From positions 1-43,236 of the forward strand of contig JACZQZ010000007.1 of NCBI GenBank assembly GCA_022545455.1: 43,236 bases of DNA, given 5' to 3'. This DNA is from Pseudomonadota bacterium (GTDB lineage: Bacteria > Pseudomonadota > Alphaproteobacteria > Rhodospirillales > 2-02-FULL-58-16). Positions within the stretch are counted from its first letter, which is position 1, and every line of letters begins with the position of its first letter. The notes under the pieces were generated by a model. The model saw only the letters and a list, made by a program, of their open reading frames with translations, did no database searches and had not been told where the DNA came from. A program made the translations under genes and the position numbers. Below, piece after piece: positions 24,412 through 29,572 of the stretch.

Positions 24412-25137
24412 TCAGGCCATGTACTGGCCGCCGTTGACCGAGAGGGTGGACCCGGTGATGAAGCCGGCCTCGTCGGCGGCCAGGAAAACGACGCACCGGG
24501 CCACCTCTTCCGGTTCGCCCAGGCGGCCGACCGGAATGTAGGCGAGGATCTTGGTTTTCAGCACCTCTTCGGGCACGGCGCGCACCATTTCGGTGCCGAT
24601 GTATCCGGGCGCGACGGCGTTCACGGTGACGCCCTTGGCGGCGTTCTCCTGGGCCGCGGCCTTGGTGAAGCCGATGATCCCGGCCTTGGCGGCGGAGTAG
24701 TTGGACTGGCCGAACTGACCCTTCTGGCCGTTGATCGAGCTGATGGTGATGATGCGGCCGAAGCCGCGTTCGCGCATGCCCCCGATGACGGCGCGGGTCA
24801 TGTTGAAGACGCTGCTTAAGTTGGTGTCGATCACCGCCGACCATTGCTCGTGGGTCATCTTGTGGAGCGTCGCGTCCCGGGTGATGCCGGCGTTGTTGGC
24901 CAGCACCTCGACCGGGCCCAGGTCGGCCTCGATCCGGGCGACGGCCTCGGCGCAGGCGGCGAAGTCGCCGACATCGAACTTGTAGACGGGAATGCCGGTA
25001 TCGGCGGTGAAGGCGTTCGCGGCGTCGTCGTTGCCGGCGTAGGTCGCCGCCACGTTGTGGCCGGCGTCCTTCAGGGCCTCCGAGATTGCGCGGCCGATGC
25101 CGCGCGTGCCGCCCGTGACGATCGCTACACGGCCCAT
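24412..25137 (-). CDS. phaB: Acetoacetyl-CoA reductase (PHB synthesis)
   Basis: Reduces acetoacetyl-CoA to (R)-3-hydroxybutyryl-CoA with NADPH, the second step of PHB synthesis. The 241-residue short-chain dehydrogenase has the cofactor loop VTGGTRGIG, LANNAGITRDATLHKM and the catalytic set in TISSINGQKGQFGQSNYSAAKAG (Ser, Tyr, Lys). It also has the PhaB-specific VNAVAPGYIGTEMVRAVPEEV and ends LSVNGGQYMA. AGGAGG lies a few bases upstream of the ATG. It follows phaA by 86 nt on the same strand. Confidence 0.96.
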   Translation of the reverse strand: MGRVAIVTGGTRGIGRAISEALKDAGHNVAATYAGNDDAANAFTADTGIPVYKFDVGDFAACAEAVARIEADLGPVEVLANNAGITRDATLHKMTHEQWSAVIDTNLSSVFNMTRAVIGGMRERGFGRIITISSINGQKGQFGQSNYSAAKAGIIGFTKAAAQENAAKGVTVNAVAPGYIGTEMVRAVPEEVLKTKILAYIPVGRLGEPEEVARCVVFLAADEAGFITGSTLSVNGGQYMA

Positions 25138-25223: not shown

Positions 25224-26399
<1,176 letters not shown>

Positions 26400-26511: not shown

Positions 26512-27801
26512 TCAGGTCATGGCCGCCTTCAACCAGCGCGCCAGGGGTCCGTACAAAATCGTCGCCGCGCGGCCGCCGGCGACCATGCCGATATGGCCGG
26601 CGCCGAGCACCCGGCGCTCCGCCCGCGGCAGGGCCTCGGCGAGCGGCGCCGCCGACGCGGGCGGCACGATGTGGTCCTTGCCCGGGATCATCACCAGCGA
26701 CCGTGCCTGCACCTCGGCCGGCAGCACCGGCCGGCCGGCGATGCGCCAGGCGCCGCGCGCCGGCCTGTTTTCCACGTACCAGCCGACCAGGCATTCGTGC
26801 GCCACCGGCCCGGCCAGGGGCACCCCGTCGTTGAGCCAGTCCTCGAGGACGACGAAGTGGCGGGCCTTCTGCGAGCGCCCGTCCAGGGCGGCGAACCGTT
26901 GGAACTTGCGCGACGTGAGATAGGGGTCCAGGCTCATGAACATGGCCTGCAGGACATCCACCGGCAGGACGCCGAGATGCTCCATCATCATGGCCAACTG
27001 GGGCGCCATGGCCTTGAGCAGGCGGATCTTGCCCGTCTGGCCGGCGTGGAAATCCCACGGCGTGCCCATGAGGGCGAGCGCGGCGACCCGATCGGGCCTG
27101 CGCTGGGCCAGCGCCAGCGCCAGCAGACCGCCCATGCAGTAGCCGATGACGCCGGCCGGCCGGCCGGCCAGGTCGACGGCCGTGGCCAAGGCCGCTTCCA
27201 GACGCCCGGCGACGTAGTCGGACAGGGTGAAGGCCCGCTCCGCCGCGCCGGGGGCGCCCCAATCCACCAGAAACGGCCGGAACCCGCGCGCCGCCAGGGT
27301 GCGCACGAGGCTGCGTTTTTCGGTAAGATCCAGGATGTAGGCCCGGTTGATCAGCGACGGGACGACCACCAGGGGGACGCCGCCGGCCCCTGTCGCCGCG
27401 CCCGCGCCGTAGTCGAGAAGCCGCGTCGACCCCTCGCTCCACACAACGGGCGGATCGGCCGGCCGCGCCCGGCGGGCATGGCGGCGATAGGCCCGCACCC
27501 CGTCGGCGAATGCGCCGAGCCGCCGGCAGGCCTCGGCGTCGACGGCGCCCGCGAAGGCGTCAGGATCGACGCGGCCGAGATCCTCCCTTAGCGCCGCCGC
27601 GGCCTCGGCGAGTTCCGGCCTCCAGGGCAGCGACCCGCTTTTCAAGGGCCCCAAGGCGGCGCGCGCACTCAGCCAGATCATCGTCTGCAGCGCCACGTGC
27701 AGCGGCAGGGGCCTGGGCCCCGGGGGCACGGCCCGCGGCGCCGGAGGGGCCGGCGTCGGGCTTTTGCTTGGTGTCGGTGCCATCGCGTTTCGGGGTTTCA
27801 C
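26512..27801 (-). CDS. phaC: PHA synthase PhaC-type alpha/beta hydrolase
   Basis: Polymerises (R)-3-hydroxyacyl-CoA into polyhydroxyalkanoate at the granule surface. The frame codes for up to 429 residues. The lipase-like box is GYCMGG with the catalytic Cys (about C222). The triad is completed by Asp in PGKDHIVPP and His in GAGHIGMVAG. VPSLINRAYILDL, the LVDWGAPGAAER stretch and MGTPWDFHAG are PhaC hallmarks. Length and the small partner upstream suggest a class III-like two-subunit enzyme. The first ~30 residues are Pro-rich. The true start is uncertain (GTG 27801, ATG 27783), but family-like sequence is visible from about 27710, so it overlaps the phaE-like frame by at least 150 nt. Confidence 0.85.
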   Translation of the reverse strand: MKPRNAMAPTPSKSPTPAPPAPRAVPPGPRPLPLHVALQTMIWLSARAALGPLKSGSLPWRPELAEAAAALREDLGRVDPDAFAGAVDAEACRRLGAFADGVRAYRRHARRARPADPPVVWSEGSTRLLDYGAGAATGAGGVPLVVVPSLINRAYILDLTEKRSLVRTLAARGFRPFLVDWGAPGAAERAFTLSDYVAGRLEAALATAVDLAGRPAGVIGYCMGGLLALALAQRRPDRVAALALMGTPWDFHAGQTGKIRLLKAMAPQLAMMMEHLGVLPVDVLQAMFMSLDPYLTSRKFQRFAALDGRSQKARHFVVLEDWLNDGVPLAGPVAHECLVGWYVENRPARGAWRIAGRPVLPAEVQARSLVMIPGKDHIVPPASAAPLAEALPRAERRVLGAGHIGMVAGGRAATILYGPLARWLKAAMT

Positions 27802-28000
27802 CGCCCTTTGCCGCGCCTTCGGGCGGCACCGTCGCGGACTGGGCCATGGAGGCGAAGGCGGCGGCGCCCGTATTCATCAACTCGATCGTCCGGGCCATGA
27901 GTTCGGCGACCTCGCGGTCCTCGGCAAGGCCGGCCAACTGCTCCTGCCAAAGGTCCAGGTACCGTTGGGCCAGCCCGTGCAAATCCGGAGGGTCCGACAT
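27560..28000 (-). CDS. PhaE-like PHA synthase accessory subunit
   Basis: The 146-residue product starts MSDPPDLHGLAQRYLDLWQEQLAGLAEDREVAELMARTIELMN. A Pro/Ala/Gly-rich low-complexity linker follows, then a short coiled coil (LGALEKRVAALE) and a basic tail. Architecture and position, immediately upstream of and overlapping phaC, fit the PhaE subunit of class III synthases, though it is shorter than the ~350-residue PhaE of purple sulfur bacteria. Its last 50-80 codons are read in a different frame from phaC. The promoter side has a perfect TATAAT (28033-28028) about 28 nt upstream and a PhaR-like operator behind it. Confidence 0.7.
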   Translation of the reverse strand: MSDPPDLHGLAQRYLDLWQEQLAGLAEDREVAELMARTIELMNTGAAAFASMAQSATVPPEGAAKGGETPKRDGTDTKQKPDAGPSGAAGRAPGAQAPAAARGAADDDLAECARRLGALEKRVAALEAGTRRGRGGAKGGSRPRRS

Positions 28001-28027
28001 GGCCTTTCCACGTGTCCCGCGACAGTC

Positions 28028-28033
28028 ATTATA
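28028..28033 (-). promoter_or_regulatory. Candidate -10 element of phaE-phaC
   Basis: Minus-strand TATAAT about 28 nt upstream of the phaE-like ATG. The -35 region is GC-rich and poor, which suits a regulated promoter. Confidence 0.45.
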
Positions 28034-28060
28034 CCGCGCCCGGCGAGGGCGGGGGAAATT

Positions 28061-28078
28061 TCACTGCAATGCAGCATT
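28061..28078. promoter_or_regulatory. Candidate PhaR operator between phaR and phaE-phaC
   Basis: CTGCAATGCAG (28064-28074) is an exact CTGC-N3-GCAG palindrome, the published PhaR target type. Read on the minus strand it is AATGCTGCATTGC, sharing AATGCTGCA with the sites at the phasin and phaA promoters. It lies 20 nt upstream of the phaR start, allowing autoregulation and control of phaEC. Confidence 0.75.
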
Positions 28079-28095
28079 TTCCGCGAGGCTTTTTT

Positions 28096-28761
28096 ATGGT
28101 ACCAATGGCGGAGACGCGCAAGGCCACTTGGGACAACCCGGCCATGGCTGACACTTCCCGGGGCGACGGTTCCGGTTCGGAAAAGACGCCGGTCACCATC
28201 AAGAAGTACGCGAACCGGCGCCTCTACAACACGGCGACCAGTAGTTACGTGACCCTTGACCACCTGTCGCAGATGGTCAAGGACGGCTGCGACTTTGTCG
28301 TCTACGACGCAAAGACGGGCGACGACATTACGCGCTCCGTGCTCACCCAGATCATCGTCGAGGAGGAATCGAAGGGACAGACCCTGTTGCCCGTCAGCTT
28401 CCTTCGCCACCTGATCAGCTTTTACGGCGACAGCCTGCAGGCCCTGGTGCCGCGCTATCTGGAATACAGCATGCAGTCGTTCGCCCGCAATCAGGAGCAG
28501 ATGCGTCATTACATGAGCGACGCCATGGGCGGCATCATGCCCTTTGCCCAGTTCGAGAAGATGGGGGAGCAGAACGCCGCCCATTTCGAGCGTGCCATGA
28601 AGATGTTCACGCCGTACTACGGCACCGAGGCGGCCAAGAAAAACATCGGTAAAACGGAAGAGCCCGAACCCCACCAGGAGCAGCTGGAAGAACTCCGTGC
28701 CAAGCTCAACCAGATGCAGGAGCAGTTGGACGCCCTGACCGGCAACGGCCGTGAATCCTGA
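28096..28761 (+). CDS. phaR: Polyhydroxyalkanoate synthesis repressor PhaR
   Basis: PhaR binds both DNA and PHB; it represses phasin and pha genes until polymer accumulates and titrates it. The core has TIKKYANRRLYNTATSSYVTLDHL and the DFVVYDAKTGDDITRSVLTQIIVEEE stretch, the PHB/PHA_accum DNA-binding domain signature. A middle helical region and a Gln/Glu-rich coiled coil end the protein. Start choice is open: ATG 28096 has GAGG seven bases upstream; ATG 28105 and 28144 are in frame; the track's 28012 start lies upstream of the operator and is unlikely. From 28096 it is 221 residues. It is divergent from phaE-phaC with a CTGC-N3-GCAG site between. Confidence 0.93.
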   Translation: MVPMAETRKATWDNPAMADTSRGDGSGSEKTPVTIKKYANRRLYNTATSSYVTLDHLSQMVKDGCDFVVYDAKTGDDITRSVLTQIIVEEESKGQTLLPVSFLRHLISFYGDSLQALVPRYLEYSMQSFARNQEQMRHYMSDAMGGIMPFAQFEKMGEQNAAHFERAMKMFTPYYGTEAAKKNIGKTEEPEPHQEQLEELRAKLNQMQEQLDALTGNGRES

Positions 28762-29164: not shown

Positions 29165-29572
29165 GTGCCTCGGAAAGCCAGGAAAATAGAGTCATTGCCA
29201 CGCGGTAGCACGACGATCAACCGTGCGACCGAAACCGACCGCTACGTGGGCGGCCGCATCCGCGAGCGCCGCATCATGCTGGGTTTGAGCCAGCAGCAGA
29301 TGGCCCACATGATCGGCGTCACCTACCAGCAGACCCACAAGTACGAGCGCGGCATCAACCGCATATCGGCGGGGCGGCTGTTCGAAATCGCCCGGGTGTT
29401 GAAGGTCCCGGTGAGTTATTTCTTCGAAGGTTTGGGAGACCGGCCCGAAGGAGGAACCCTGACCGGACGTCAGCGCATGTGTCTTGAGCTGGCGCGCAAT
29501 TTCGCCCGGATCACCAACGAGCGCCACCAGGAGGCCCTGAGCCGGCTGGCGCGCACCCTGGCCCGGGAATAA
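29165..29572 (+). CDS. XRE-family helix-turn-helix regulator
   Basis: A 135-residue DNA-binding protein with a single HTH_3 domain at about residues 28-90: IRERRIMLGLSQQQMAHMIGVTYQQTHKYERGINRISAGRLFEIARVLKVPVSYFFEG. A short Arg-rich tail follows that may mediate dimerisation. The whole protein is of a type very common in alphaproteobacteria, often essential or conserved, though with few defined targets. The GTG start at 29165 has GGAGGAA five bases upstream. It converges on queG with a 16-nt gap. Regulated genes are not evident. Confidence 0.88.
   Translation: MPRKARKIESLPRGSTTINRATETDRYVGGRIRERRIMLGLSQQQMAHMIGVTYQQTHKYERGINRISAGRLFEIARVLKVPVSYFFEGLGDRPEGGTLTGRQRMCLELARNFARITNERHQEALSRLARTLARE

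Follow-up and report, generated by a model that had tools for sequence, protein, structure and literature searches.

Selection maintains a long out-of-frame overlap between phaC and a small upstream gene across many Alphaproteobacteria

Organization of the overlapping locus

In the stretch of DNA analysed here (43,236 nt, hereafter the window), the 3' end of a small gene and the 5' end of phaC, which encodes the catalytic subunit of a PHA synthase, occupy the same nucleotides in two frames of one strand. This dual coding is kept by selection across many Alphaproteobacteria. The explanation that best fits the data, and which we regard as highly probable, is an ancient same-strand overlapping pair in which both frames are selected, PhaC is initiated internally and the small protein is a partner or activator of PhaC.

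Both genes are located on the minus strand. The small gene (27560..28000; ATG at 28000, TGA at 27562-27560) encodes a protein of 146 aa and is recognized by its open reading frame, its alphaproteobacterial homologues and its dN/dS. The phaC gene (26512..27783) encodes a protein of 423 aa if read from ATG 27783, or of 429 aa from GTG 27801, and the dual-coded overlap (27560..27783) measures 224 nt from the former start and 242 nt from the latter. A minimum overlap of 161 nt (27560..27720) is set by the conserved PhaC motif GPRPLPLH; since PRPL, which is invariant among 27 diverse PhaCs, begins at 27717, at least ~161 nt is read twice. Within the shared stretch, codon position 3 of PhaC corresponds to codon position 1 of the partner gene. 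The original prediction, which had described a long overlap between two different frames of the same strand, was thus borne out with respect to both the coordinates of the frames and the extent of the dual-coded stretch.

Downstream of phaC, in an operon-like array on the same strand, lie phaA (thiolase; 25224..26399; PF00108 and PF02803) and a phaB-like acetoacetyl-CoA reductase gene of the SDR type (24412..25137), the latter assigned from its translation and from the gene order annotated in Azospirillum. A common phaE-phaC-phaA-phaB transcript would be consistent with this arrangement. Divergent from the small gene is the ORF of the repressor gene phaR (28012..28761, plus strand; PF07879 and TIGR01848, above cut-off), whose true start is probably the ATG near 28144. 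The order phaR/phaC/thiolase/phbB is also annotated in Azospirillum plasmids. An ORF for an XRE-type helix-turn-helix regulator, as judged from the sequence alone, is situated beside the pha cluster (29165-29572, plus strand). Elsewhere in the same genome (contig C61:29778-30296), a 598-aa open frame encodes a further PhaC, of canonical type and with a complete PF07167 domain; the organism therefore possesses two different PHA synthases.

Conservation of the overlap among relatives

Using PhaC alone as the query, 130 loci were retrieved within the order, with upstream DNA present in 129. All 129 were shown to carry a homologue of the small gene in the same relative frame and overlapping phaC, the small ORF running 53-206 nt (median 161) past the GPRPL anchor of PhaC. 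The same kind of overlap, in an unchanged relative frame, was observed in 109 of 109 further loci, representing named GTDB genomes together with class-level genomes found through the small protein, among them members of Magnetospirillum, Azospirillum, Thalassospira, Reyranella, Pelagibius, Thalassobaculum and Telmatospirillum; the few odd overlap lengths in this set reflect an anchor misplaced by the text pattern. The frame of the small gene is thus kept beyond its linker in relatives, as the original prediction implied. All strong matches to the small protein came from the class Alphaproteobacteria; when the other classes of the phylum were searched with it, weak coiled-coil matches only were returned. 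Many of the compared sequences are MAGs.

Two variations on the common arrangement were observed. One MAG (G031, locus L068) contains an in-frame TAG in the partner gene, 53 nt beyond the PhaC anchor and within the overlap; the heptads past the TAG are intact and a sister genome (L056) lacks it, and the TAG represents either a recent nonsense mutation or an assembly error. In addition, loci L123, L126, L128, L129 and similar ones, which are probably from Thalassospira, carry a long Met/Pro/Gly-rich insert in the partner, placed between its N-terminal hairpin and its coiled coil, with the overlap kept.

Selection on both reading frames

The non-overlapping N-terminal block of the partner gene exhibited a dN/dS of ~0.085 (138 pairs), and the phaE-like frame is therefore a real protein gene. 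A frame that is genuine N-terminally could nevertheless continue into the overlap as an out-of-frame shadow of a conserved, GC-rich phaC: the N-terminus of phaC is itself conserved, off-frame GC-rich DNA yields R/G/A/P-rich sequence, and for the window the partner frame would stay open in 87% of synonymous phaC shuffles. Averaged over genomes, only 55% of such shuffles leave it open. Codon-level comparisons, in which the residues of 89 PhaCs with <80% identity were held fixed while synonymous codons were permuted within each gene, two misaligned loci being left out, render such a shadow exceedingly improbable. Amino acid conservation in the partner frame exceeded that of the shuffles with z = 16, 42 and 31 at PhaC residues 36-45, 46-55 and 56-65, respectively (numbering from the GTG, as for all PhaC residues in this section), and codon identity at residues 46-55 was 0.74 versus 0.38 expected. 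Most windows in the rest of phaC were 0-10 SD above the shuffles, with the exception of residues 146-155 (16 SD), a value comparable to that of the first overlap window. As relatedness inflates all windows, the evidence lies in how far the overlap stands apart from the remainder of phaC.

The same PhaC-preserving shuffles destroy the heptads and the E/R positions of the partner, whose heptad core is 98% hydrophobic in the natural sequences versus 54% in the shuffles. Similarly, the last 17 partner residues carry a net charge of +4.5 versus +2.2 in synonymous shuffles (p = 3e-12).

Codon-box usage pointed in the same direction. Leu and Arg were used for this comparison, as a single synonymous step separates their boxes. 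Leu 50 is encoded by TTG in 84 of 84 sequences and Leu 53 by TTR in 58 of 59, as compared with 20% TTR among Leu codons outside the overlap, where the highest single column reaches 45% (59 Leu columns). Conversely, the neighbouring Leu 52 and Leu 58 are never encoded by TTR (0/28 and 0/52, respectively), because the partner needs an NCT-type codon there. Arg 54 and Arg 61 are AGR in 24/25 and 21/21 sequences (45/46 together), versus 6% of Arg codons outside the overlap and at most 25% in any single one of 68 outside columns. Residue 61 varies among K, R, N and S, yet all codons for these residues begin with AA or AG at this position, so that the partner Glu is kept in 87/87 sequences. Leu and Arg codons are thus restricted to the less common box at precisely those positions where the partner requires L/I/V or E. 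Codon choice is dictated by the partner heptads and E/R positions throughout a double-constraint core covering PhaC residues 45-61 (27619..27669, minus strand).

The same codon-box pattern was seen in two additional samples, one of 25 class-level and one of 51 named-genome sequences (<65% identity in each), the latter partly sharing genomes with the first sample. Conservation and the codon-shuffle tests together rule out a chance open frame in GC-rich DNA. Both frames in the overlap are under purifying selection, and the originally predicted constraint on both genes is supported by codon-box choice, by the synonymous shuffles and by the conserved frames.

Ser codon boxes were set aside as weak evidence, since switching between AGY and TCN takes two steps and some Ser columns outside the overlap (residues 164 and 149) are fixed to the same degree. 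Synonymous conservation outside the overlap is raised at PhaC residues 146-155 and 164 (~27366-27310); Ser boxes are partly fixed there (TCN at residue 149 and AGY at residue 164), and may be ancestral rather than selected.

The PhaC protein and its dual-coded N-terminus

PhaC matched PF00561 and, just above cut-off, PF07167 (PhaC_N). Among PhaC subfamilies, TIGR01836 was the best match, although its score is below cut-off (172.7 versus 365.3 bits). The lipase-like box G214 Y C216 M G218 G, D370 and H397 are invariant or nearly so in the 27 diverse PhaCs; as in other members of the PHA synthase superfamily, a catalytic Cys/Asp/His set is combined with an alpha/beta-hydrolase fold, as indicated by sequence and by Foldseek. 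The latter retrieved PhaC structures with E-values down to 6e-17, the best of which were full-length and catalytic-domain class I PhaCs.

AlphaFold2 predicted the PhaC structure with a mean pLDDT of 89.9. The overlap encodes two N-terminal helices, at residues 26-49 and 56-70 (ATG numbering; 27574..27708, minus strand); another helix (74-101) lies just past it, ahead of the hydrolase domain. An hhalign comparison with an annotated class III PhaC from Rhizobium begins only at residue 114, and the overlap therefore encodes an extension which class III lacks.

If phaC were to start downstream of the overlap, the conserved 'N-terminus' would instead be a shadow of the partner gene. Neither ATG 27783 nor GTG 27801 is preceded by a strong SD match in the window, and later ATG and GTG codons are present around 27680; a start near residue 41 (27681) or later would be compatible with such a reading. 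However, conserved PhaC sequence is located upstream of 27681. PRPL is invariant and G22 and H29 are nearly invariant among the 27 diverse PhaCs, and P29, P31, L32 and H35 (GTG numbering) are conserved where the partner frame is less so. The confidently predicted helices in this region and the start codons described below likewise argue against a downstream start, which we consider very improbable.

Translation of phaC

A start codon is found no more than 35 codons upstream of GPRPL in 119 of 119 anchored relatives (ATG in 113 and GTG or TTG in 6), from which internal initiation of PhaC is inferred. Alternatively, programmed ribosomal frameshifting could link the two frames in a PhaE-PhaC fusion, with no separate translation of PhaC; in most loci the PhaC frame extends without a stop well beyond its start in the upstream direction, and the relative frame is constant throughout both sets of relatives. 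Nevertheless, the near-universal presence of a start codon of PhaC's own ahead of GPRPL, and the fact that the linker, where the shift site would necessarily lie, is the least conserved part of the partner, make frameshifting highly unlikely. Internal initiation, most likely at ATG 27783 or GTG 27801, is the preferred reading. The SD match is weak at both of these candidates, and the region shows purine enrichment only; an SD motif at the internal start was therefore not taken as decisive evidence.

The original prediction had further proposed that the overlap fixes the PhaE:PhaC stoichiometry through translational coupling, a regulatory claim that is compatible with internal initiation and additional to it. 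A same-strand overlap within an operon would suit coupling, as translation of the partner could expose the PhaC start. However, the partner stop is situated ~220 nt downstream of that start, a distance too great for ordinary termination-reinitiation, and classical reinitiation is therefore not expected. Structure in the start region is at the level of shuffled sequence (z 0.0 to 0.5), and among relatives the minimal overlap ranges from 92 to 266 nt. With the weak SD matches, these observations leave the coupling claim unsupported, and we consider it rather doubtful.

The partner protein

The AlphaFold2 model of the partner consists of an N-terminal helical hairpin (helices 7-26 and 29-56), a disordered linker, a single helix at residues 105-132 and a disordered basic tail. 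As the pTM of this model is 0.29, only its local helices are to be trusted. The hairpin (residues 7-56; 27833..27982, minus strand) lies outside the overlap and contains a conserved RYLDLWQ motif. Helix 105-132 (27605..27688, minus strand), with the coiled-coil heptads DLAECARRLGALEKRVAALE, is located wholly within the overlap and has a pLDDT of ~90 in its core. It is followed by the basic tail (residues 133-146; 27563..27604, minus strand), whose net charge was compared with the shuffles above; this tail is reminiscent of that of PhaM. As had been anticipated, the shared DNA thus specifies both a basic coiled-coil tail for the partner and the N-terminus of PhaC, and the predicted helices and the tail charge agree with this.

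Apart from weak matches to phasin models, profile scans linked the partner neither to classical PhaE nor to any other known family. No match to PF09712 (PHA_synth_III_E) was found in the window's own genome, this family is absent from those listed for 50 partner homologues, and no NCBIfam PhaE match was obtained among the homologues scanned. Alignment to an annotated Rhizobium PhaE using hhalign reached 7.7% probability over 19 columns, which is chance level. NCBIfam and Pfam scans of the homologues yielded no match to a PhaM or PhaR-subunit model. When compared with phasin families (PF09361 and TIGR01837), only weak matches were observed, i.e. to Phasin_2 in 3 of 50 members (best 0.011) and to TIGR01837 in 1 of 50 (0.0012). 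PDB matches of the partner were to generic coiled coils and were not taken as indicative of its identity. The protein is accordingly 'PhaE-like' by position only and not by family homology, and the name given in the original prediction does not hold in the latter sense.

Under the favoured explanation, the 3' end of the small gene would supply a coiled-coil helix and the basic tail at the C-terminus of the partner, and the same ~160-240 nt, read one base later, would supply the N-terminal helical extension of PhaC. The small protein, with its hairpin, flexible linker, coiled coil and basic tail, would most likely oligomerize through the dual-coded helix. By analogy with PhaE, PhaR (class IV) or PhaM, it may serve as a partner or activator of PhaC at the nascent granule; this role is proposed from its position, its constant pairing with PhaC and its shape rather than from homology. 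We tentatively suggest, as a possibility that falls short of being probable, that much of the Alphaproteobacteria possesses a two-component PHA synthase whose small subunit is hidden under the first 50-75 codons of phaC, and that the dual-coded segments share the subunit interface. In that case, one mutation could alter both partners at once.

Annotation of the small gene and its consequences

In the records of seven Azospirillum plasmids, that of A. brasilense Sp7 among them, nothing other than phaC ('alpha/beta fold hydrolase') is listed at the position of the small ORF. No CDS for the small gene is listed between phaR and phaC on three Azospirillum plasmids (L270-L272), where the small ORF is present and shares 230 nt with the annotated phaC. 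As the plasmid gene table describes itself as incomplete, the missing CDS is strongly suggestive but does not amount to proof. In Prodigal, same-strand overlaps are limited to at most 60 bp (PMC2848648), which would explain a systematic omission of the small gene; pipelines that bar longer same-strand overlaps cannot report both genes. The open-access literature, to which the search was directed, yielded no description of a phaE-like/phaC overlap. A paper on Defluviicoccus places phaE beside phaC, without naming its family.

The evidence for the overlap comes from codon usage in well above 100 sequences. The findings also point to an accessory protein that has been overlooked, although the enzyme concerned is of industrial importance. 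Recoding, codon-optimizing or deleting the overlapping phaC also destroys the partner. PHB is reported to be absent from a phbC mutant of A. brasilense (cited in PMC10383645), in which the mutated copy may or may not be the overlapping phaC; such a mutant phenotype may be partly that of the partner if the lesion is in the shared stretch. The cost and purpose of dual coding are directly testable in Azospirillum, Magnetospirillum and Thalassospira, which are tractable in the laboratory.

Comparison with known systems

To our knowledge, long conserved out-of-frame overlaps in cellular genomes have rarely been proven. The present pair resembles other long same-strand bacterial overlaps in being out of frame on one strand, and, as in a same-strand overlapping pair, there are two conserved open frames with selection on each beyond the effect of the other. 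It differs from them in a length far above the 60-bp limit of Prodigal, in its occurrence in many genera and in codon-level selection on both frames. The phases of same-strand overlaps have been analysed (PMC2542354), and long overlaps have been described as underestimated, with few established (PMC9927249).

Among PHA synthases, class I PhaC (e.g. that of Aeromonas caviae, 9knj-9knl) provides the top full-length structural matches and shares the PF07167 match just above cut-off, whereas the overlapping PhaC has only ~423 aa and dual-coded N-terminal helices. PhaR of the class IV PhaR/PhaC enzyme and PhaM of R. eutropha are analogous to the partner in being small accessory proteins of a PHA synthase, but differ from it at the level of family models, as reported above; PhaM attaches granules to the nucleoid (PMC3556143).

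In the class III PHA synthase (PhaE/PhaC), too, a gene for a small helical partner immediately precedes that for a short PhaC bearing a G-x-C-x-G lipase box and catalytic D/H, and the TIGR01836 model of this class is the best subfamily match. In contrast, the partner described here lacks a PF09712 match, and its PhaC falls below the TIGR01836 cut-off and carries an N-terminal extension. The annotated class III phaE and phaC of Rhizobium do not overlap, being separated by a 4-nt gap. This classical pair, on plasmid pRLTp73_2 of Rhizobium leguminosarum (L273), provides a useful contrast from within the same class.
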